Shown here: piece after piece, positions 2,848 through 20,168 of the stretch
Numbering within the stretch: the stretch's first letter is position 1
Layout: each line of letters starts with the position of its first letter
NCBI GenBank assembly: GCA_017552715.1
Contig: JAFZOW010000048.1
Coordinates: 1-38,102, forward strand
From: Lachnospiraceae bacterium
GTDB lineage: Bacteria; Bacillota; Clostridia; Lachnospirales; Lachnospiraceae
Length of the DNA stretch: 38,102 nt
Direction of reading: 5' to 3'
The notes under the pieces: generated by a model
Database searches by the model: none
What the model saw: only the letters and a program-made list of their open reading frames with translations
Told to the model about the DNA's origin: nothing
Position numbers and translations under genes: made by a program

Positions 2848-4514
2848 GAAGTGACAGCGTTAAGAAGGGAACGGCACAGGCCCCTCACAGGAGCCTGTTC
2901 AATGCACTGGGCTATACAAAAGAGGAGCGGGAACGACCGATGATCGGTATCGTTTCCTCCTATAACGAGATCGTGCCCGGACATATGAACCTGGATAAGA
3001 TCACGGAGGCTGTAAAGCTGGGCGTGGCCATGGCCGGTGGTATGCCGGTAGTCTTTCCGGCCATTGCGGTATGTGACGGTATCGCCATGGGGCATGTGGG
3101 CATGAAGTATTCCCTGGTAACGAGGGATCTGATTGCGGATTCCACCGAATGTATGGCCATGGCTCACGGTTTTGACGGCCTGGTGATGATCCCCAACTGT
3201 GATAAGAACGTGCCTGGGCTGCTCATGGCTGCGGCAAGAGTAAATATCCCCACTGTTTTTGTGAGCGGCGGTCCCATGCTGGCCGGCCATGTGAAAGGGC
3301 GCAAGCGCAGCCTGTCTTCCATGTTCGAAGCTGTGGGCGAGCTGGCTGCAGGCAAGATCACCGAAGCGGATCTGGAAGAATTTGAGGAGAAGGTATGTCC
3401 CAGCTGCGGATCATGCTCCGGTATGTATACGGCAAATTCCATGAACTGCCTGACAGAGGCTCTGGGCATGGGGCTTCGTGGTAACGGCACCATTCCCGCT
3501 GTTTATTCCGAACGTATCCGCCTGGCAAAGCATGCAGGCATGAAGATCATGGAGCTTGTGGAGAAGGATATCCGTCCCCGTGATATCATGACAGAGAAGG
3601 CTTTCCTGAATGCGCTGACCATTGATATGGCACTTGGCTGCTCCACCAATTCCATGCTGCATCTGCCGGCCATCGCCCACGAGGCTGGAGTGGAGCTTAA
3701 CCTGGATATTGCCAACGAGCTTTCCGCAAAGACCCCGAACCTCTGCCATCTGGCACCGGCAGGCCCTACCTATATGGAGGATCTGAACGAGGCCGGCGGC
3801 GTATATGCTGTGATGAATGAGCTTTGCAAGAAAGATCTGCTCTATACGGATCTGATGACGGTGACGGGTAAGACCGTGGCCGAGAATATCAAGGGCTGCG
3901 TAAATATGGATCCCGAAGTGATCCGGCCCATCGATAATCCTTACAGCCAGACCGGCGGTATCGCCGTGCTGAAGGGGAATCTGGCTCCTGATTCCGGTGT
4001 GGTGAAGCGCTCTGCCGTGGTGCCCGAGATGATGGTGCATGAAGGGCCTGCCCGGGTATTTGACTGTGAAGAGGATGCAATTGCCGCCATCAAGGGCGGA
4101 AAGATCGTGGCGGGTGATGTGGTGGTGATCCGTTATGAGGGACCCAAGGGAGGTCCCGGCATGCATGAGATGCTCAATCCTACTTCTGCCATTGCGGGCA
4201 TGGGTCTGGGGAGCAGTGTGGCGCTGATCACCGACGGACGTTTTTCCGGTGCCAGCAGAGGTGCTTCCATCGGACACGTATCTCCCGAAGCTGCGGTGGG
4301 CGGACCTATCGCACTGGTGGAGGAAGGGGATATCATCTCCATCGATATCCCGAACAATAAGCTGGATATGAAGGTTTCGGATGAAGAGCTGGCAGCACGC
4401 CGTGCTAAGTGGCAGCCGAAGGAGCAGAAGCTCACGGGCTATCTGGCACGTTACCGTGAGCTGGTGACCAGCGGAAATCAGGGAGCTATCCTTAAGGTTC
4501 CGGGGAAAGGTTGA
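2844..4514 (+). CDS. ilvD: Dihydroxy-acid dehydratase
   Basis: IlvD is the Fe-S dehydratase that makes the 2-keto acid precursors of valine and isoleucine. The 556 residues match the family. Cluster ligands are visible in PNCDKNVPG and in [16 protein letters not shown]. The C-terminal [22 protein letters not shown] motif contains the catalytic Ser region. The start ATG overlaps the stop of the preceding mini-ORF, and an AAGGGGAAG-type ribosome site lies inside that ORF, so translation is likely coupled. Its end is 11 nt before the ilvB ATG. Confidence 0.97.
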
Positions 4515-4525
4515 GGAGTAAGACT

Positions 4526-6226
4526 ATGGCAGCGAAAAAGAAAGCAGAAGCAGTAAGGGAACTGTCCGGTTCAGAGATCGTGATCGAATGCCTGAAAGAG
4601 CAGGGAGTGGATACGGTCTTCGGCTATCCCGGAGGTACCATACTGAATATTTATGACGAATTATACCGGCATTCCAACGAGATCACCCATGTACTGACCA
4701 GTCACGAGCAGGGAGCCGCCCATGCGGCAGACGGCTATGCCAGATCCACCGGTAAGGTGGGTGTGTGCCTGGCAACTTCCGGTCCCGGAGCTACCAATCT
4801 GGTGACGGGTATCGCTACGGCATATATGGACAGTGTTCCCGTGGTGGCCATCACCTGTAATGTGACCCTGCCCTGGCTGGGAAAGGATACCTTCCAGGAA
4901 GTGGATATCGCCGGCATTACCATGCCTATCACCAAGCACAGCATCATCGTAAAGGATGTGACGAAGCTGGCGGATACCCTGCGACGTGCCTTCGCCATCG
5001 CAAAGAGCGGACGTCCCGGCCCTGTGCTTGTGGATATCACCAAGGATGTGACGGCTGCGAAGTGTGCTTATAAGAAAGAAAAACCTTATCTGCTTCCCGT
5101 TGAAAAACGTTACACGGATGAGGATATCGAAAAAGCCCTTGAGCTGATCCGTTCCGCCGAGCGTCCTTTTATCTATGTGGGCGGTGGTGCCATCATTTCC
5201 GGTGCTTCAAAGGAAGTGGCGGAATTTGCAAGAAAGATCGATGCACCGGTCTGTGACAGCCTTATGGGTAAAGGCGCCTATGACGGTACGGCTGCTGAAT
5301 ATACCGGCATGATCGGTATGCACGGTACAAAGACCACCAACATCGGCGTGAGCAAATGTGATCTGCTCATCGCTCTGGGTGCCCGTTTTTCCGACCGTGT
5401 GGTATCCAATCCCAAGACCTTTGCTCCCAAGGCGAAGATCCTGCACATCGATATCGATGCGGCCGAGATCAATAAGAACATCCGCACTACAGCTTCCGTT
5501 GTGGGAGACCTGAAGGAAGTGCTGACGATACTGAATAAGAAGCTGACGAAGCAGGAGCATAAGGAGTGGATGGATAAGATCAGGGATATGAAGGCCAAGA
5601 TGCCGCTGACCTATCCGCATTCCCGCCTGACCTGCCCTTATATCATCGAAACTCTTTATGATGTTACCAAGGGGAAGGCTGTGATCACCACGGATGTGGG
5701 ACAGCACCAGATCTGGGCGGCCCAGTTCTATAAATATACGGAACCCAGGACTTTCCTGTCCAGTGGCGGCCTTGGGACCATGGGCTACGGTCTTGGAGCC
5801 TGCATCGGTGCCAAATACGGCCGGCCGGATAAGATCTGCGTGAACATCGCAGGGGACGGCTGCTTCCGTATGAACATGCAGGAGCTGGCAACGGCTTCCC
5901 GTTATCATGTGCCCATCATCGAGATCATCGTGAACAACCATGTGCTGGGCATGGTAAGGCAGTGGCAGAATCTCTTCTATGGACAACGTTATTCCCAGAC
6001 TGTGCTGGAAGATGCGGTGGATTATGTTAAAGTTGCGGAAGGTCTGGGCTGCGAGGCTTACCGTGTGACAAAGAAGGAAGAGCTGGAAGCCGTTCTTAAG
6101 AAGGCTGTTAAAGCCAAGGGGCCTGTAGTCATCGATTGTATCATCAAGGAGGATGACAAGGTATTTCCCATGGTGCCCGGCGGCCAGCCTCTGGAAGCGG
6201 TGTTTGACGCCGACGACCTGAAATGA
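4526..6226 (+). CDS. ilvB: Acetolactate synthase, catalytic large subunit
   Basis: This TPP- and FAD-dependent enzyme condenses pyruvate (or pyruvate and 2-ketobutyrate) in branched-chain amino acid synthesis. The 566-residue product has the N-terminal FGYPGGTILNIYDEL motif, the catalytic Glu in SHEQGAAHAADGYAR, and the TPP/Mg motif GDGCFRMNMQELATA ending in NNHVLGMVRQWQ. The ATG at 4526 is chosen because GAGGAG at 4513-4518 lies 7 nt upstream. A TTG at 4511 would add five residues and overlap the ilvD stop, but has no better ribosome site. No small regulatory subunit gene (ilvN/ilvH) follows, so that subunit must be elsewhere or absent. The gene ends in a structured element. Confidence 0.96.
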   Translation: MAAKKKAEAVRELSGSEIVIECLKEQGVDTVFGYPGGTILNIYDELYRHSNEITHVLTSHEQGAAHAADGYARSTGKVGVCLATSGPGATNLVTGIATAYMDSVPVVAITCNVTLPWLGKDTFQEVDIAGITMPITKHSIIVKDVTKLADTLRRAFAIAKSGRPGPVLVDITKDVTAAKCAYKKEKPYLLPVEKRYTDEDIEKALELIRSAERPFIYVGGGAIISGASKEVAEFARKIDAPVCDSLMGKGAYDGTAAEYTGMIGMHGTKTTNIGVSKCDLLIALGARFSDRVVSNPKTFAPKAKILHIDIDAAEINKNIRTTASVVGDLKEVLTILNKKLTKQEHKEWMDKIRDMKAKMPLTYPHSRLTCPYIIETLYDVTKGKAVITTDVGQHQIWAAQFYKYTEPRTFLSSGGLGTMGYGLGACIGAKYGRPDKICVNIAGDGCFRMNMQELATASRYHVPIIEIIVNNHVLGMVRQWQNLFYGQRYSQTVLEDAVDYVKVAEGLGCEAYRVTKKEELEAVLKKAVKAKGPVVIDCIIKEDDKVFPMVPGGQPLEAVFDADDLK

Positions 6227-6413
6227 TATGATACAAGGCCACCAAGCTTCTGAGCCGTTCGTGCTTTCACGAAATGGCTCAGAAATTTGGTGGCCGAACG
6301 AACATGAGCAAGTAGCAAGATGCCCTGCTTTAGGGCATTGAAGCGGATTGCGAATGTTCGCAGGATTGCGGGAGCATCTAAAGATGCGAAGCAATCCTGG
6401 TATCATACATTTT
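6221..6413 (+). ncRNA. Structured stop-codon element, copy A (ilvB/tmcAL)
   Basis: This is a 193-nt folded element between the convergent genes ilvB and tmcAL. The closing stem is 6221-6234 with 6400-6413 and covers the stop codons of both genes. Inside are three hairpins. H1 is 6237-6245 with 6287-6295, extended by 6250-6256 with 6276-6282 and 6259-6263 with 6268-6272. H2 is 6299-6305 with 6354-6360, capped by 6320-6326 with 6332-6338. H3 is 6363-6369 with 6391-6397, capped by 6374-6379 with 6382-6387. The blocks CGAACATGAGCAAGTAGC (6299-6316), GCGGATTGCGAATG (6343-6356) and GCGGGAG (6368-6374) recur exactly in copy B after polC. I recognise no named RNA family. It might act as RNA (3'UTR element or processing signal) or be a small mobile repeat. 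Confidence 0.65.
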
Positions 6414-7554
6414 ACAGAACCACTACACCACGGCGGTATTCCGAAAGGAAGCCGCCGTTTTTTGATGCCGTACGGGAATACAGCTCGGAGCAGAAGACAT
6501 CCTTTTCGAAGCTTAAAAGAGCGGCGCCATCAAGGAGCTTCCCGGCATCGGCTGCCTTGGCTATAAGAGGCCGGTCGCAGTTTTTGCGGATACGCTTGAG
6601 CAGCGCCGAATCCTTTTTCAGCCCCAGTATGCGAAGATAGGGGCAGTAGCCGTATATGTCAATGAGTTTATGCACTTCATCATTCCGTATCTTTAAAAGT
6701 ATATGGAGCAGAGCACGGCGGATATGACTTAAGCTGATATCCTTGGATTTAAGGCTTTGGGCGAAGCTTTCCGCATCCGTGTATCCCTCCAGACGGGACA
6801 GAATCTTATCGGAGAGATCATCAAACACATCAAAATATGCACCGTATCCACTGTCTTTTCCGGAAAGAAGAGCATAGAAGAGAAGAGAGGAATAGCTTTT
6901 AAAACACATGGGATCTCTTGTGATAAGGCTTTCGTTCAGATATTTGACCGCCCCTTCGGGCATAAAATCGATACAGGCATCTTCGCCTGAAAGAATATAC
7001 TCGCGAAGAGCGGAAGCGGACAGAAAGCCATCGGAAGGCAGGAGGGAATCGTGACCGGGCCCAATACGCTTTATAGTATGAGTTTCCATGTCCGAACGGA
7101 AATGATCAAGTGCTTTTAAGTATTCTGCTGCCAGCAGATCGTTGGGACCGGGCCTTTCATCAAAAGGGGTGAAGCGGCCTTTTCCCGCTTCCGGATCGGC
7201 GATCACGGCTTCCGTCTTCTTAAGAGCTTCGATATCGCCGCTTTCGCTGCCGAAGAGCAGGGCATCGCAGGCGCCCGTATGCAGAAGAGCCGACACGGCT
7301 CCTCTTGCAAAATACTGTGCACTGCCTGTGGCAAAAGCAGAGGGCAGCTCCAGCACCAGGTCCGCACCGGCATCCAGCGCCATTCCGGCCCGGGCATATT
7401 TATCGATGATGGCAGCTTCGCCGCGCTGGACGTGATCACCGCTCATCACTACAAGCAAAGCATCTGCTCCGAGACGCTCTCTGGCATCCCGGAGCAGTGC
7501 GGCATGTGCATTATGCAAAGGATTGAATTCGGCGATGATACCTGCGGTCTTTAT
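6412..7554 (-). CDS. tmcAL: tRNA(Met) cytidine acetate ligase, apparent ATA start
   Basis: TmcAL (YlbM family) uses ATP and acetate to acetylate the wobble cytidine of elongator tRNA-Met. The product shows the nucleotidyltransferase N-terminus GIIAEFNPLHNAH, then VVMSGDHVQRGEAAIIDKYARA, DLVLELP and the later SASALREYI motif. Family members start about two residues before AGIIAEFNP. The only codons between the upstream in-frame TGA (7564-7566, the reductase stop) and that motif are GGA AAG ATC ATA AAG ACC GCA. ATA at 7552-7554 gives MKTAGIIAEFNP and sits 6 nt after GAGGA, so it is the best start, though non-canonical. The first standard start in frame is TTG at 7518, which would remove the conserved nucleotide-binding motif. 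The usual HxGH is HNAH here. With the ATA start the length is 380 residues, against about 415 for B. subtilis YlbM. Confidence 0.85.
   Translation of the reverse strand: MKTAGIIAEFNPLHNAHAALLRDARERLGADALLVVMSGDHVQRGEAAIIDKYARAGMALDAGADLVLELPSAFATGSAQYFARGAVSALLHTGACDALLFGSESGDIEALKKTEAVIADPEAGKGRFTPFDERPGPNDLLAAEYLKALDHFRSDMETHTIKRIGPGHDSLLPSDGFLSASALREYILSGEDACIDFMPEGAVKYLNESLITRDPMCFKSYSSLLFYALLSGKDSGYGAYFDVFDDLSDKILSRLEGYTDAESFAQSLKSKDISLSHIRRALLHILLKIRNDEVHKLIDIYGYCPYLRILGLKKDSALLKRIRKNCDRPLIAKAADAGKLLDGAALLSFEKDVFCSELYSRTASKNGGFLSEYRRGVVVL
6430..6463 (+). terminator. Intrinsic terminator for ilvB, inside tmcAL 3' end
   Basis: ACGGCGG (6430-6436) pairs with CCGCCGT (6452-6458), extended by TTCC/GGAA around a GAAA tetraloop. 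Six Ts follow at 6458-6463. On the plus strand this is a good Rho-independent terminator for the leuB-ilvD-ilvB unit. It lies inside the last codons of the convergent gene tmcAL, so the two transcripts must overlap at their 3' ends. Confidence 0.75.
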
Positions 7555-13615: not shown

Positions 13616-14698
13616 ATGGCATATCGTGACAATACCAAAAAGATACGTATCGGGGAGCGGCTGATCGGCGGCGGAGAACCCATAGCCATTCAGTCCATGA
13701 CAAATACACCCACCGAAGATGTGGAAGCAACGGTGGCCCAGATCCTGGCGCTGGAAGAGGCGGGCTGCGAGATCATACGTTCCACCGTGCCGACTCCGGA
13801 AGCTGCAGAGGCCCTCGGAAAGATCAAAAAGCGTATTCACATTCCTATTGTTGCGAATATCCATTTCGATCACCGCTGCGCTCTGGCGGCCATTGCCGCA
13901 GGGGCGGATAAGATACGTATCAATCCCGGTAATATCGGCGGCGAAGAAAAACTGAAGGAAGTTGTCCGGGCTGCAAAGGAAAGGATGATTCCCATACGCG
14001 TTGGCGTGAATTCCGGATCCCTGGAAGCCGGACTGGTGGAGAAATATCACGGAGTGACGGCGGAAGGGCTCGTGGAGAGCGCTCTGGATAAAGTGCGAAT
14101 GATCGAGGAGGCGGGTTACGACAATATCGTTATCAGCATCAAATCTTCGGATGTGCGTATGAGCATTGATGCACACAGCCTCATTGCCGGTAAAAGCCCC
14201 TACCCCCTGCATGTGGGTATTACCGAAGCGGGTGGTCTGATCTCGGGAAATATCAAGAGCTCTGTAGGACTCGGGGTGATACTTGACAGAGGCATAGGAG
14301 ATACCATACGCGTTTCCCTTACAGGGGATCCGTTGGAGGAAGTGAAGAGCGCAAAACTGATACTGAGGAGCCTGGGGCTGCGTTCCGGCGGCATAGAAGT
14401 GGTAAGCTGCCCTACCTGCGGCCGTACGAAGATCGACCTGATCGGTCTGGCGGGACAGGTGGAGGACATGGTGCAGACTATAAAGCTGCCTGCGGGAAAA
14501 TCTTTGCGGGTGGCGGTAATGGGCTGTGCGGTGAACGGCCCCGGGGAAGCCAGAGAGGCAGATATAGGCATAGCCGGCGGGAACGGGGAAGGACTGCTCA
14601 TCAAAAAGGGCGAGATCGTAAGAAAACTCCCCGAAAGCGAGCTTCTGGGGGCTTTGCGTTATGAGCTGGAACACTGGGGGGCGGCGGATAATGCCTAA
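13616..14698 (+). CDS. ispG: 4-hydroxy-3-methylbut-2-enyl diphosphate synthase
   Basis: IspG (GcpE) is the Fe-S enzyme that converts methylerythritol cyclodiphosphate to HMBPP in the MEP isoprenoid pathway. The 360-residue product has the N-terminal GGGEPIAIQSMTNTPTEDV, the VANIHFDHRCAL motif and RINPGNIGG. The C-terminal cluster ligands are in SCPTCGRTKIDL and MGCAVNGPGEA. ATG 13616 is preferred over an in-frame upstream TTG at 13586, because GGAGGG (13603-13608) lies 7 nt before it and the family starts there. Its end overlaps the start of polC by 8 nt. Confidence 0.96.
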   Translation: MAYRDNTKKIRIGERLIGGGEPIAIQSMTNTPTEDVEATVAQILALEEAGCEIIRSTVPTPEAAEALGKIKKRIHIPIVANIHFDHRCALAAIAAGADKIRINPGNIGGEEKLKEVVRAAKERMIPIRVGVNSGSLEAGLVEKYHGVTAEGLVESALDKVRMIEEAGYDNIVISIKSSDVRMSIDAHSLIAGKSPYPLHVGITEAGGLISGNIKSSVGLGVILDRGIGDTIRVSLTGDPLEEVKSAKLILRSLGLRSGGIEVVSCPTCGRTKIDLIGLAGQVEDMVQTIKLPAGKSLRVAVMGCAVNGPGEAREADIGIAGGNGEGLLIKKGEIVRKLPESELLGALRYELEHWGAADNA

Positions 14699-17600
14699 AA
14701 CTTTTCGGGAAACCTTCGGGGAAGTGAATATCCGCGAGGATCTTATGCGCCTTTTTGAGGACGTGACCGTAGACCGTCTGGTGCTGAAAAAGTCCGAGCA
14801 GACGGTGAAGCTCTGCATTTCCTATGACCGTCTGATCAAAAGGGATCATATCCGGGCGTTGGAACGGGAATTGCAGGATAAGCTCTTTTCCGACAGGGGT
14901 TTGAAATTAAAGGTGCTGGAGGATTATCATCTTACGGAACAGTACAGTGATGAATATCTGGTGGAGAATTATTTCGACAGCCTGCTGGAGGAGCTCTCGG
15001 AGCGGGACCGCCTGATCCATACGGTACTCAGGAACTGCATTCCACGCCTGGAGGAGGACCGGCTTATCCTGCCACTTGCAGATGATTTTGTTGCGCATCA
15101 GAAGGAGAAGGAGATCGTAAAACTCTGCGATCATATCTTTCAGGACCGTTTTCACCGTTCCCTCCATACACAGATCGAATACTGCGAGAAGGGTGAGAAT
15201 GTACACCGCAAAGAGAGCGAGCTGAAGAGCCGCCGTATGGTGGAGAGCATACTGGAGGAAAGCGCGGCGCGTATGGCCCAGATCCGTTCCGATGAAGCGG
15301 CGGATCCCGGTGAAGAACTCCTGGGGGCGTCCGGCGGGGCGTCAAAGAAGGAAGCACCGTCTGCGGTGCCGATGCAGGCACCCAAAGCGGAAGCGGCCGG
15401 CAGAAAAAAGAATACGAAAAAAACGGCTGCTACGGTAAAACGCCTGAAAATGGGAGACGATCCGGATCTGCTCTACGGAAGGAATTTCGAGGGCGATGCG
15501 GAGGAGATCGTGAGCCTTACTGACGGCATGGGAGCAGTGATCGTCCGCGGGGAAGTGCTCAGGGTGGATGAGATCTGCTTTAAAAAGACAGGAAACTTTC
15601 TATTCAAATACACGATCTCGGATTATACGGATGCCCTGCGTTTCAAGCTTTTTGCGGATGCGGAACAGGCGGATGAGGTAAGAAGTCTGATAAAGCAGGG
15701 GGATTTTGTGCGCATCAAGGGCATGCCCCAGTATGACGATTTCGATAAAGAACTGGAACTGGGGAATGTGTACGGTGTAAAGAAGATCCCGGACTTCCGT
15801 GTAAAGCGGGAGGATCTGGCCCTGCGAAAGCGGGTGGAGCTTCACTGTCATACCAAGATGAGCGATATGGATGCCTGCGGCGACGCGGCGGATCTTCTGA
15901 AGTGTGCCAAACGCTTCGGCCATACAGCCATGGCCCTTACGGATCACGGAAACGTACAGGGCTTTACAATAGCCAGTCATGCCCTGGATAAGGGAGACAG
16001 CTTTAAGCTCCTCTACGGCCTGGAGGCCTATGTGGTGGATGATACGCGCCTGCCTGTAGTGAACGACCGTGGGCAGAGCCTGGATGATGATTATGTGGTC
16101 TTCGATATCGAAACCACGGGTTTTGTGCCGGGATACAGCCGTATCATCGAAATAGGTGCCGTAAAGGTTCAGCAGGGTGTCATCACCGATCGTTTTTCCG
16201 AATTCATCAATCCCGGGGTTCCCATCCCTCTGGAAATAGAAAAACTCACCAGTATCTCGGATGCCACGGTGGCGGATGCTCCTCCCGTGGAGGAGATACT
16301 GCCCCGTTTTCTGGATTTTTGCAAAGGCTGTGTGCTGGTGGCCCATAATGCCAAATTCGACACTTCCTTCATACGGCATTTTGCAGGAAGTCTTGGGCTT
16401 GAATATGATTTCACCCATACGGACACCATCGATCTGGCACGCATCCTTTTACGCAAACTCGGGAAATATACCCTGGATCATCTGGCCAAAGAGCTGAACA
16501 TCCCGGCCTTTCATCATCACCGTGCTGTGGACGACGCCGAGGCAACGGCCCAGATCTTTGTGAAGTTTCTTTCCATGCTGAAGGAACGGAAGATCTTTAC
16601 TCTTACGCAGATCAACGAGAGCAGCCGTTTGAGTCCGGAAAAGATCGCGGATCTTTACCCGCATCATACTGTACTGCTGGCGAAAAACGAACTGGGACGC
16701 CGTAACCTGTACAGACTTGTGAGCCTTTCTCATCTGAAGTATTACGGGCGTACGCCCCGTATCCCCAAGAGTGAACTTATCGCTCACCGGGAAGGTCTGA
16801 TCGTCGGCAGCGGCTGTGCTTCGGGTGAACTTTACCAGGCCATCGTAAACGGCCGTACGGATGAGGAGATCGCAGGTATCGTAGATTTTTACGATTATCT
16901 GGAGATACAGCCCATAGGCAACTGTGAGTATCTGATCGAGAGGGAAAAGCTTCCCACCATAACAAGCCGGGAAGATCTGATCAATGTTAACCGGCGTATA
17001 GTGGAACTGGGGGAACTGCATCGTAAGCCTGTCTGTGCCACCGGGGATGTGCATTATATCGAGCCTGAGGATTCCATATACCGTACCATCGCCATAAGCG
17101 ACCGTAAACTGGATAAGGTCTATAATTACTCCGACAGCATGTACTTCCATACCACGGAGGAGATGCTGGAGGAATTTGCCTACCTTGGTTCCGATAAGGC
17201 AGAAGAGGTGGTGGTGACCAATACCAACCGCATCGCGGACATGTGCGATCATATCAGCCCCGTGCGGCCGGATAAATGCCCGCCGGTGATACCGGATTCC
17301 GACAAGACCCTTCGGCGAATCTGTTATGATAAAGCTCACGAGCTGTATGGCGATCCCCTGCCGCCCATCGTGGAGGCCAGGCTGGAGAAGGAGCTTAAGT
17401 CCATCATAGGCAACGGCTTCGCCGTGATGTATATCATAGCCCAGAAGCTGGTGTGGAAATCCGTGGAGGACGGTTATCTGGTAGGAAGCCGTGGTTCCGT
17501 AGGCTCTTCCTTTGTAGCCACCATGGCCGGCATCACGGAGGTAAACCCGCTGCCGCCGCATTATTATTGCACGGAATGCCATTACAATGATTTTGATTCA

Positions 17601-19193
17601 GAAGAAGTGAAGGCTTTTGCGGGTACAGCGGGCTGCGATATGCCCCGGAAGAAATGCCCGAAATGCGGCGCAGATCTTAAGAAGGACGGCTTTGACATCC
17701 CCTTCGAGACTTTCCTGGGCTTTAAGGGCGATAAGGAACCGGATATCGACCTGAACTTCTCCGGAGAATACCAGTCCAAAGCCCATAAATATACGGAAGT
17801 GATCTTCGGGGCCGGTCAGACCTTCCGGGCAGGGACCATAGGTACCCTGGCGGATAAGACGGCCTTCGGCATCATCTCCAAATATTTCCGGGAGCATGAG
17901 ATAAACAAAAAACCGGCGGAGGTGGACCGCATGGTGCCGAACCTGGTGGGCATACGCCGTACTACGGGCCAGCACCCCGGCGGTATCGTGGTGCTGCCGG
18001 TGGGGGAGGATATCGATACCTTCACGCCCGTGCAGCATCCGCCTGCAGATGATACCACCATAACCACACATTTTGATTACCACTCCATCGATCATAACCT
18101 GCTGAAGCTGGATATACTGGGACACGATGATCCCACCATGATACGTATGCTGCAGGATCTTACCGGAGTGGATCCCCTTACCATCCCCCTGGATGATCCT
18201 GAGGTGATGAGCCTCTTCCAGGATACCCATGCCCTGGGCATCATGCCCGAGGATATCGGAGGCACAAGGCTGGGAGCCCTGGGGATACCGGAATTCGGTA
18301 CGGATTTCGCCATGCAGATGCTTATCGACGCACAGCCCAAGAGCTTCGCGGATCTGGTGCGTATCTCCGGTCTTTCCCACGGGACGGATGTGTGGCTGGG
18401 GAATGCAAAGGACCTGATCTTAAGCGGGGTTGCTACCATCTCAACCGCGGTATGTACCCGCGACGACATCATGACCTATTTGATCCAGATGGGAGTGGAG
18501 AGCTCGGAAGCCTTCAGTATCATGGAGGCCGTGCGTAAAGGCATGGTGGCCAAACACAAGGTGGACGAGAAGTGGGCAAAGTGGACCGAGGATATGCGGG
18601 CCTGCAATGTGCCGGAATGGTATATAGGATCCTGTGCAAAGATCAAATACATGTTCCCGAAAGCACATGCGGCGGCTTATGTTATGATGGCCTGGCGTAT
18701 CGCCTGGTGCAAGATCAATTATCCGCTGGCCTATTATTGTGCCTATTTCTCCATCCGTGCTTCGGCTTTTGATTATGAGCTGATGTGCCTTGGGCAGGCA
18801 AGGCTGGAAGAACAGATGGCGATCCTGAAAAAAAGCATTGCTGATAAGACCGCCAAACCCAAGGATGCCGCAACCTATGATGATATGCGTCTGGTGCAGG
18901 AAATGTATGCCAGAGGCTTTGATTTCACGCCCATCGATCTATACAAGGCAAAAGCCAGTTCATTTCAGATCGTGGACGGGAAGCTGATGCCTTCCTTTGC
19001 CTGCATCTCCGGTGTGGGTCCCAGTGTGGCGGAGCTCATAGAGGATGCTGCAGCCCGGGGCGAATTCCTTTCCAAGGATGATTTTATGCATCGCACAAAA
19101 GCCTCCCAGACCATCGTGGACACCCTGGACCGTCTGGGGATCCTGGGAAATATGACAAGTTCTAATCAGATTTCGTTGTTCGACATGCTGTAA
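14691..19193 (+). CDS. polC: DNA polymerase III alpha subunit, Gram-positive PolC type
   Basis: PolC is the main replicative polymerase with built-in proofreading. The product is 1500 residues, close to family size. Domains in order are: an N-terminal region; an OB-fold (about 280-370); a PHP domain opening with ELHCHTKMSDMDACG near residue 383; a DnaQ-like 3'-5' exonuclease inserted in it, with FDIETTG at 471, HNAKFD and HRAVDDAEAT; a four-Cys zinc site, CTEC (960) and CPKC; and the palm motif DIDLNFSGEYQ (catalytic Asp near 1018-1020). A duplex-binding HhH region and a C-terminal beta-clamp-type ending, NQISLFDML, follow. ATG 14691 is preferred to the in-frame ATG 14661, which would overlap ispG by 38 nt. 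Confidence 0.98.
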   Translation: MPKTFRETFGEVNIREDLMRLFEDVTVDRLVLKKSEQTVKLCISYDRLIKRDHIRALERELQDKLFSDRGLKLKVLEDYHLTEQYSDEYLVENYFDSLLEELSERDRLIHTVLRNCIPRLEEDRLILPLADDFVAHQKEKEIVKLCDHIFQDRFHRSLHTQIEYCEKGENVHRKESELKSRRMVESILEESAARMAQIRSDEAADPGEELLGASGGASKKEAPSAVPMQAPKAEAAGRKKNTKKTAATVKRLKMGDDPDLLYGRNFEGDAEEIVSLTDGMGAVIVRGEVLRVDEICFKKTGNFLFKYTISDYTDALRFKLFADAEQADEVRSLIKQGDFVRIKGMPQYDDFDKELELGNVYGVKKIPDFRVKREDLALRKRVELHCHTKMSDMDACGDAADLLKCAKRFGHTAMALTDHGNVQGFTIASHALDKGDSFKLLYGLEAYVVDDTRLPVVNDRGQSLDDDYVVFDIETTGFVPGYSRIIEIGAVKVQQGVITDRFSEFINPGVPIPLEIEKLTSISDATVADAPPVEEILPRFLDFCKGCVLVAHNAKFDTSFIRHFAGSLGLEYDFTHTDTIDLARILLRKLGKYTLDHLAKELNIPAFHHHRAVDDAEATAQIFVKFLSMLKERKIFTLTQINESSRLSPEKIADLYPHHTVLLAKNELGRRNLYRLVSLSHLKYYGRTPRIPKSELIAHREGLIVGSGCASGELYQAIVNGRTDEEIAGIVDFYDYLEIQPIGNCEYLIEREKLPTITSREDLINVNRRIVELGELHRKPVCATGDVHYIEPEDSIYRTIAISDRKLDKVYNYSDSMYFHTTEEMLEEFAYLGSDKAEEVVVTNTNRIADMCDHISPVRPDKCPPVIPDSDKTLRRICYDKAHELYGDPLPPIVEARLEKELKSIIGNGFAVMYIIAQKLVWKSVEDGYLVGSRGSVGSSFVATMAGITEVNPLPPHYYCTECHYNDFDSEEVKAFAGTAGCDMPRKKCPKCGADLKKDGFDIPFETFLGFKGDKEPDIDLNFSGEYQSKAHKYTEVIFGAGQTFRAGTIGTLADKTAFGIISKYFREHEINKKPAEVDRMVPNLVGIRRTTGQHPGGIVVLPVGEDIDTFTPVQHPPADDTTITTHFDYHSIDHNLLKLDILGHDDPTMIRMLQDLTGVDPLTIPLDDPEVMSLFQDTHALGIMPEDIGGTRLGALGIPEFGTDFAMQMLIDAQPKSFADLVRISGLSHGTDVWLGNAKDLILSGVATISTAVCTRDDIMTYLIQMGVESSEAFSIMEAVRKGMVAKHKVDEKWAKWTEDMRACNVPEWYIGSCAKIKYMFPKAHAAAYVMMAWRIAWCKINYPLAYYCAYFSIRASAFDYELMCLGQARLEEQMAILKKSIADKTAKPKDAATYDDMRLVQEMYARGFDFTPIDLYKAKASSFQIVDGKLMPSFACISGVGPSVAELIEDAAARGEFLSKDDFMHRTKASQTIVDTLDRLGILGNMTSSNQISLFDML

Positions 19194-19372
19194 CAGGGTG
19201 CAATGTTCCGGCATCGGTCATGCTTGCATGAAGCGATGCCGGAATTTGGCACCCGCCCCGAACATGAGCAAGTAGCGAGGGCTGCTTTTTTTTCGGGCAG
19301 CCCCGCGGATTGCGAATGCTCGGCGGGATCGCGGGAGTGCGAAGCACGGAGCGATCCCGCTTACAGCATGTC
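19182..19372 (+). ncRNA. Structured stop-codon element, copy B (after polC)
   Basis: This 191-nt element has the same layout as the copy after ilvB. Its closing stem is 12 perfect pairs, 19182-19193 with 19361-19372, so the 3' arm is the reverse complement of the last 12 bases of polC, stop codon included. H1 is 19196-19201 with 19249-19254 plus 19206-19216 with 19234-19244. H2 carries the conserved CGAACATGAGCAAGTAGC (19259-19276) and GCGGATTGCGAATG (19305-19318) around a cap, 19279-19285 with 19297-19303. H3 is 19325-19332 with 19351-19358, capped by GTGC/GCAC. It explains about half of the 375-nt gap after polC; the remainder (19373-19568) is AT-rich and holds the pilus promoter. Confidence 0.65.
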
Positions 19373-19477: not shown

Positions 19478-19568
19478 AGATATGATAAACTTGCTCAGAT
19501 TATGTAAAGTACAAATAACAATCAGCCGATATAAGATATAGTTGCAGAATGCCTGGCGGAGAGGACGG

Positions 19569-20168
19569 ATGAGAAAAGGACAGCATAAAAACCGGGGATT
19601 TACACTGGTAGAACTGGTCGTGGTTATCACGATCCTTGGTATGCTGCTTGCTATTTTGGTTCCTCAGCTGCTGGGTTACGTGGATGAGTCCAGGCTGAAG
19701 GCGGAGTTCTCCGCCGGAGAATGCTGCCGGCAGGCGGCGCAGGCAAAGCTGAATGCGCTGGCTTACCGGGAAACACAGCCGAATTATAATAACCGTGGCG
19801 TTGCTGTCTCGTCCAATTCCATAGAGCTCTGGCATCCCGTGTTTGCGGATCCCGTGATCGAGATGTCCGGGCAGGAGGTTCGGAATCTTTTTATCGCCAT
19901 GGGGCGTTATGATCATTATGAGGCGATCCATAATACGAATCCGGTATATAAAGTCTACTATGTGGCATACCAGCGGAACGAGGATTCGCCTGTAGTGTTT
20001 TATGACGGATCGGACTGGATGACGGAATGCCCCTTTGGTAACACGGAAGTGGCAACAATTAACGGTGAATCGGTAGCCATACAGTTTTTCTGTCTAAAGT
20101 TTGACGGAAAAGGTGTATACTCCGATCCTGCGCAGGTGTTTAACGCGCTGAAGAGCGGGACGTACTGA
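19569..20168 (+). CDS. Type IV prepilin-like protein 1
   Basis: The 199-residue product has a short basic leader ending in Gly (MRKGQHKNRG), then FTLVELVVVITILGMLLAIL with Phe+1 and Glu+5, the class III prepilin signal cleaved by prepilin peptidase. The sequence continues VPQLLGYVDESRLKAEF, a helical stem, and then a soluble domain of about 140 residues without recognisable fold. ATG 19569 has GGAGAGG a few bases upstream; an in-frame TTG at 19542 would give an extra nine residues and is less likely. It is the first gene of the pilus operon and is followed after 2 nt by another prepilin. Confidence 0.9.
   Translation: MRKGQHKNRGFTLVELVVVITILGMLLAILVPQLLGYVDESRLKAEFSAGECCRQAAQAKLNALAYRETQPNYNNRGVAVSSNSIELWHPVFADPVIEMSGQEVRNLFIAMGRYDHYEAIHNTNPVYKVYYVAYQRNEDSPVVFYDGSDWMTECPFGNTEVATINGESVAIQFFCLKFDGKGVYSDPAQVFNALKSGTY

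Follow-up and report, generated by a model that had tools for sequence, protein, structure and literature searches.

The window analysed here, a stretch of 38,102 nucleotides of Lachnospiraceae bacterium DNA (assembly GCA_017552715.1, contig JAFZOW010000048.1, positions 1 to 38,102 of the forward strand), contains two structured intergenic elements, copy A (6221-6413) and copy B (19182-19372). Both are members of Rfam family RF01699, the Clostridiales-1 RNA, and we propose that they are probably copies of the body of a small non-autonomous transposon resembling miniature inverted repeat transposable elements (MITEs), which would have lost its right end (the tail), had one arm of its closing stem rewritten to fit the neighbouring gene and been retained where it lies in the sense orientation. 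This reading is carried by the transposon ends and target duplications of full-length units, by insertion polymorphism between relatives, by a strand-specific lock of the tail-less class to stop codons and by the native origin of the 5′ arm of the closing stem.

Transposon ends, target duplications and distribution of RF01699

Comparison with Rfam placed A and B in RF01699 over the whole model (positions 1-166), at 109.8 and 119.9 bits respectively, far above the gathering cut-off of 48 bits. The initial annotation, which had recognised no named family and counted two copies, is corrected on both points, as the window's genome holds 22 RF01699 matches, 14 of them over the cut-off. Table 1 of Weinberg et al. 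2010 (PMC2864571) lists the family as probably RNA, probably not cis-regulatory and probably not a switch, and its occurrence is given there as Clostridiales and human gut. A full-text search on the family name and accession found no published reading of RF01699 as a mobile element, which is not proof of absence, and the literature on MITEs in Lachnospiraceae, judged by its listing, held nothing on this element. Within the literature searched, RF01699 is a known RNA family, to which the present analysis would add, from sequence, its reading as a transposon body: the window copies match the entire model as published, whereas the full unit described below appears as a mobile element bounded by inverted repeats and target duplications, with a closing stem rebuilt from the neighbouring gene.

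In genomes G415 and G144, and in part of G384, copies extend beyond the 3′ end of the Rfam model to a right terminal repeat which mirrors the left end (left end TGATRCYAGGGTCAAAAG; right end TGATGTNGGGGTCAAAAG, read inwards), giving terminal inverted repeats (TIRs) of the TGATRYNRGGGTCAAAAG type. Scanning 86 loci of these three genomes for both ends, with at most four mismatches per end, returned 70 units, of which 47 are flanked by a perfect 5-bp target site duplication (TSD) and eight more by a duplication matching at 4/5 positions, against a mean of 3.1 and a maximum of 10 with shuffled flanks (2000 shuffles). The duplicated sequence reads TWWWA, with T first in 42/47 and A last in 40/47. 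The presence of TIRs and of 5-bp TWWWA duplications on full units argues for RF01699 as the body of a MITE-like transposon. Duplications were also seen in other genera, flanking 20 of 27 tailed copies when one base of slack was allowed (shuffled mean 1.3, maximum 5, 500 shuffles). Furthermore, G415 contains shorter relatives with the same ends, one of 38 bp (L261) and two of 71 bp (L258 and L267), which consist of the terminal repeats alone or with one hairpin and are flanked by short direct repeats.

For the genus of the window's genome we assembled 78 copies, comprising 18 of the 22 matches of the window's own genome (four omitted) and 60 genus matches picked by score. Scoring combined with visual inspection put ten of the 78 in the tailed class, two of them with scores below 12/18; seven other copies at 12-13/18 were excluded, since their match fell on unrelated sequence or on a second 3′ module. 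A perfect duplication flanks seven of the ten tailed copies, a figure which is not independent because the duplications were visible to the eye during classing; L007, a tailed copy in the window's own genome, has TAATC on both sides. Neither A (L010) nor B (L006) has a right terminal repeat above swapped flanks (8/18 and 9/18; null median 9), and by this sequence score both belong to the right-end-less or tail-less class, defined by a low match score to the 18-nt right end, a definition by which decayed tails are missed. This class is probably older than the full units.

RF01699 was matched in 20 of the 35 genomes of the genus, at 0-35 matches per genome (genomes are often fragmented, and some of the 15 match-free ones are incomplete), in 111/392 genomes and 54/173 genera of a sample of the order, and in 0/14 control genomes. 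The amplified genomes G415, G144 and G384 hold at least 111, at least 70 and at least 93 matches, respectively, 150 of 169-177 first-look candidates having been scored in each. We rejected the solo 3′ hairpin as the mobile unit, since of its nine strict matches in the genome seven lie inside listed elements and two beside one. Spread by viruses was also rejected: the 14-nt core occurs in 107 viral-contig stretches, which we judge, by an uncomputed estimate, to be about the number due to chance, and the nine of 80 listed loci which were scanned held no RF01699 match. The 3′ hairpin module stands in tandem at L009 (1500-1860), L005, L067, L083 and L100, and in L009, L067, L083 and L100 the tandem module bears a local closing-stem arm.

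Stop codons and the closing stem

Copies A and B share three blocks in the same order, CGAACATGAGCAAGTAGC (18 nt), GCGGATTGCGAATG (14 nt) and GCGGGAG (7 nt), seen in a direct-repeat scan too, within a common hairpin layout; both features had been annotated initially and both were confirmed. The folds are far more stable than those of shuffled sequences, at -106.8 kcal/mol for A (6221-6413; z -13.7) and -117.5 kcal/mol for B (19182-19372; z -10.5), with 0/200 dinucleotide shuffles as good in either case. The closing stem, P1, includes the upstream stop codon in both copies, as had also been claimed: it is a stem of 13 bp in A, enclosing TGA 6224-6226 with its A bulged, and of 12 bp in B (GACATGCTGTAA/TTACAGCATGTC), enclosing TAA 19191-19193. 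The elements and their neighbouring genes are arranged as follows.

6221..6413, + strand: copy A, RF01699 element with extended closing stem (Rfam match 6229-6405; fold)
6221..6234, + strand: A, 5′ arm of closing stem P1, in which lies the upstream gene's stop codon, TGA 6224-6226
6237..6295, + strand: A, long hairpin P2 (fold)
6299..6360, + strand: A, central hairpin with internal loops GA/GA and GUA/GGA (shared blocks; fold)
6361..6399, + strand: A, 3′ hairpin P5 (fold)
6400..6412, + strand: A, 3′ arm of P1, complementary to the gene end (fold)
19182..19372, + strand: copy B, RF01699 element with extended closing stem (Rfam match 19186-19368; fold)
19182..19193, + strand: B, 5′ arm of P1, native sequence, being the end of the polC-type gene (final codons plus stop, TAA 19191-19193)
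19196..19254, + strand: B, long hairpin P2 (fold)
19259..19322, + strand: B, central hairpin with internal loops GA/GA and GUA/GGA (shared blocks; fold)
19323..19360, + strand: B, 3′ hairpin P5 (fold)
19361..19372, + strand: B, 3′ arm of P1, perfect inverted copy of the gene end (inverted-repeat scan, fold)
4511..6226, + strand: gene upstream of A, thiamine-pyrophosphate enzyme, which we take to be acetolactate-synthase-like
6412..7518, - strand: convergent gene downstream of A, HIGH_NTase1 family
14661..19193, + strand: gene upstream of B, PolC-type DNA polymerase III alpha
19542..20168, + strand: gene downstream of B, protein with a prokaryotic N-terminal methylation motif

In 56 independent tail-less copies of the genus, we located frames of at least 100 codons on the same strand which end within 150 nt, open frames being defined by length and not by homology. 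Read inwards, the TGAT...ATCA ends both open with TGA, so that chance would place a stop equally often on either side, and the 3′ side is a built-in control. The upstream stop lies within -4..+3 of the element start in 33 of 43 cases, compared with 1 of 25 for opposite-strand frames on the 3′ side (Fisher p = 3e-9); of the remaining stops, three are at -6, -8 and -11, and the interval from +4 to +33 is empty. An even spread over the free intergenic space predicts 11/55 locked copies, as against 42 observed (60-codon frames, kin copies included). Other genera gave 12/35 vs 0/13 (p = 0.02) for 57 copies scored as tail-less, drawn from fewer than the 35 genomes sampled; on visual inspection four of these have a right end, and leaving them and kin copies out gives 12/34 vs 0/10. 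The stop bias is absent from the full units of the amplified genomes (5/20 vs 5/27 with 100-codon frames, 6/29 vs 6/32 with 80-codon frames), and tailed copies of other genera gave 1/9 vs 1/7.

Relatives with an empty site indicate which arm of the closing stem is native. Fifteen polC orthologs of the genus were read besides that of the window, and the 14 readable ones have no element behind the stop, their products ending in ...SNQISLFDML, -DMMD, -DLL and similar. Among the best 80 of 262 named polC relatives, mostly labelled Lachnospiraceae, the core motif occurs within 260 nt of the stop in 0/80 and the FD-type end is kept in 77/80, which argues that the 5′ arm at 19182-19193, GACATGCTG-TAA, is native and that TTACAGCATGTC was made to match it. 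At L067 the same arrangement recurs, the gene end being native and the 3′ arm complementary to it; in close relatives of G006, the empty gene end reads GAG-AGA-TAA and the occupied one GAG-CGA-TAA-CAGGG...GTGTTATCG. At L098 the site is empty in G006 (CCTATT-TGACGATATTAG), occupied by a 3′ remnant in G031 and followed by the element in G002, behind TGACGATA. The L102 site is empty in G031 and G006, with ATG-TAA-TT common to these and the occupied site; at L066, AAA-TAA has become AAA-TGA, with the element's own TGA serving as the stop; and L060 also has an empty site in close relatives. The gene upstream of A stops 3-5 residues short of its seven closest orthologs (L142-L148), so that its end may have been shortened. 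These sites bear out the initial suggestions that the closing stem is locally made, its 5′ arm being native and its 3′ arm complementary, and that the element is a mobile repeat sitting at stops, which the TIRs, the target duplications and the stop lock also support.

At L312 and L317 (G006 and G031), another structured-looking insert of about 270 nt lies right behind the stop at a site where G002 and G020 have RF01699; the insert at L312 has no Rfam match, and the gene downstream of the site is presumably that of D-aminoacyl-tRNA deacylase.

The arms of P1 vary together. The 56 tail-less genus copies have 36 distinct 5′ arms and form 6.5 of 7 outer pairs, compared with 3.9 when arms are swapped (maximum 4.5, 2000 shuffles), a pairing which is inflated, to the benefit of our reading, by the placement of the outer ends with a covariance model favouring paired ends. 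RNA selection is expected to favour G-U strongly over A-C, and a small control set of 13 distinct tRNAs, kept only if 6/7 acceptor pairs form, gave 44 Watson-Crick, 5 G-U and 0 A-C pairs. In a fixed register, P1 of the 56 tail-less genus copies has 360 Watson-Crick, 5 G-U, 5 A-C and 22 other pairs, and that of 82 copies from other genera (tailed copies included) 548 Watson-Crick, 4 G-U, 9 A-C and 13 other. That P1 is variable and yet shows no excess of G-U over A-C points to copying of arms at the DNA level, presumably by template switching. For the inner helices, the alignment treats G-U and A-C alike and takes in those genus copies whose anchors could be located; P4 (38/66 copies) gave 323 Watson-Crick, 3 G-U and 1 A-C pairs, and P5 (44/66 copies) 377 Watson-Crick, 4 G-U and 1 A-C. 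A preference for G-U is thus absent in P1 and mild in the other counts.

We envisage that a transposase acting in trans would put the unit beside a gene end, that the right end would be lost afterwards and that template switching between the hairpin arms during replication would rewrite the 3′ arm to fit the native 5′ arm. Copying of one hairpin arm onto the other in replication gives rise to fully paired changes in one step (PMC8794818). Sense copies at stops would be retained, the transcribed hairpin being tolerated or useful there, and would most likely act as a 3′-end or intercistronic mRNA structure which starts at the stop codon, similar to a repetitive extragenic palindrome (REP). No T run as in terminators is seen at the 3′ end of A or B, and some copies lie between same-strand genes, for example L085 and L091, with neighbours which we take to be EtfB and EtfA; on these grounds such a structure seems preferable to a terminator. 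A more tentative idea, which we consider possible rather than probable, is that a transposon-borne RNA fuses to the host gene: sense insertion at the stop, followed by fold-back copying, would make the last codons and the stop one strand of the closing stem, coupling termination and folding at many unrelated genes per genome.

Copy A fills the gap between two convergent stop codons (genes ending at 6226 and 6412). An intrinsic terminator was rejected as the identity of the elements, as a consensus scan gives none at A and its sole match at B falls within B's own central hairpin. Just behind A and outside the element, a terminator-like hairpin with a T run can be seen by eye at 6430-6463, within the 3′ end of the minus-strand HIGH_NTase1 frame; the consensus scan does not report it. 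Elsewhere in the window, a direct repeat of 25 nt (1422-1446 and 1603-1627; 24/25 identical, 181 nt apart) lies between the open frames 1074-1397 and 1655-2740.

Alternative explanations and candidates for the mobilising enzyme

Several results weigh against the transposon reading. No TSD was seen at A or B. The lock of the tail-less copies, with the interval +4..+33 empty, is tighter than we would expect from tolerance alone; frames of 80 codons lift their 3′ side to 5/36 (5′ side 33/44), which weakens the contrast and keeps its direction; and the tailed genus copies lean to the sense stop (4/7 left vs 1/3 right), in a set of ten which is too small to tell. G-U pairs outnumber A-C pairs in P2 (54/66 copies; 1310 Watson-Crick, 41 G-U, 25 A-C), in 50 tail-less copies aligned by consensus (49 vs 31) and, counted by cells, in the young copies of G415 (40 vs 19). 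Given this excess outside P1, some RNA-level selection on the stems may be at work; as an argument for it, the G415 count was rejected, as its event counts (18 vs 14) do not reach significance (p = 0.60). The view of the initial annotation that covariation of helices marks an RNA as selected is therefore weakened for P1, where G-U is no commoner than A-C, and keeps some force for P2. What suggests RNA-level selection instead is the sense-only stop lock together with the widely shared internal-loop architecture: GA/GA plus GUA/GGA fits 57/66 genus copies and 67/82 copies of other genera, the 4-bp helix that separates the loops being variable. This constancy is partly built in, as the search required GA loops and helix pairing. 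Both features weigh against a purely DNA-level view. Finally, the presence of a Y1 transposase, a candidate mover, is unrelated to that of RF01699 (9/20 carriers, 6/15 non-carriers).

One alternative, which we regard as unlikely, is that the tail-less copies are a separate mobile form, travelling through an RNA or single-strand intermediate and joining sense-strand stops, with the 3′ fold-back copying the gene end at insertion. The sense-only lock beside strand-neutral full units in the amplified genomes would fit such a form, as would the native 5′ arm with its inverted 3′ copy at polC and L067. It also draws support from pairing past the model ends, since at least four extra Watson-Crick bases pair in 8/66 copies against 0.86 expected and 0/5000 permutations reach the observed mean, but this excess becomes weak once wobble and one mismatch are allowed (12 vs 8.5 expected, 330/5000 permutations). 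Moreover, the closest within-genome pairs of the genus include tailed copies, both members being tailed in L058/L065 and one being tailed and the other scored tail-less in L053/L059 and L054/L077, which speaks against two separate forms. Among candidate enzymes for such a form, only Y1_Tnp was examined.

It is improbable, in our view, that RF01699 is a genuine cis-acting RNA of 3′ untranslated regions, under selection and spread by duplication, whose transposon-like ends result from later capture by a MITE. The internal-loop architecture, kept despite variable 4-bp helices, argues for this possibility, together with the sense-only lock, the G-U count of P2 and the persistence of orthologous copies across species (for example L094/L099, L102/L106 and L085/L091). 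However, the presence of the element at a given gene is sporadic, with 0 of the best 80 polC relatives carrying it and 15/35 genus genomes match-free (some of them incomplete), and G-U is favoured neither in P1 nor by events in the young G415 copies.

A palindrome of the REP or bacterial interspersed mosaic element (BIME) type, moved by a REP-associated tyrosine transposase (RAYT; Y1, HUH), is highly improbable: short hairpin repeats occur here too, many per genome and behind stop codons, but Y1_Tnp is not associated with RF01699, the window's own genome combines 22 RF01699 matches with no Y1_Tnp match, and TIRs with TSDs are, to our knowledge, not features of REPs.

A candidate source of the enzyme required by the transposon reading was found in G013, a genome with no RF01699 match, in which three contig ends (L638, L648 and L654) carry TGATGTTGGGGTCAAATGGACCCC, the same terminal repeat as RF01699 units. 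In two of the three, an ATG lies about 120 nt inwards and about five codons can be read from it before the contig ends; the interior is unassembled and no protein is readable. These ends look like a multi-copy insertion sequence broken by assembly, a candidate autonomous element. The candidate had no match in plasmids, its inner end had 0 exact matches in viral contigs, and its 16-nt end is carried by 34 viral-contig stretches. Among the loci scanned, an autonomous element was rejected, the nine end-pair rows 260-6000 nt apart being taken for short copies that are nested or adjacent, or for ends without a partner.

Comparison with known systems

Read as a transposon, an RNA family first described in 2010 gains a possible origin. 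This reading implies that the covariation which marks RF01699 as a structured RNA can partly arise at the DNA level through a mobile palindrome, and it advises caution, as covariation lacking G-U intermediates may not signify RNA selection. With its empty sites and its young and old copies, RF01699 is a natural system for studying how template switching builds RNA stems, and the route by which a transposon comes to be a permanent feature of mRNA 3′ ends can also be studied in it.

Bacterial MITEs are a class of non-autonomous DNA transposons and, like them, RF01699 units are short and non-coding, with TIRs, a target duplication and a high copy number. They differ from MITEs in their large structured interior with shared internal loops, and in having a class without the right end which is still folded and is locked to stops in the sense orientation.

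The changes in the closing-stem arms resemble template-switch hairpins, in which multi-base and perfectly paired arm changes are described, one event being a reverse-complement copy of a neighbouring stretch (Monttinen & Loytynoja 2022, PMC8794818). The hairpins in that description belong to RNA genes, whereas here the same process would join a transposon to the stop codon of a host gene.

The REP and BIME sequences of E. coli are hairpins which, like RF01699, lie directly behind stop codons. RF01699 is different in being about 190 nt long, in not being a single palindrome and in having no link to Y1/RAYT. For E. coli, the RepRanger report counts 4,072 REPs, 446 of them no more than 15 nt from a stop (PMC12306157), compared with 33 of 43 scored tail-less genus copies of RF01699 within -4..+3. 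According to earlier work cited in the same report, E. coli REPs less than 16 nt from the stop, and only those, lower translation (PMC12306157), and by analogy REPs would seem to be the nearest functional precedent for the stop-locked copies of RF01699.

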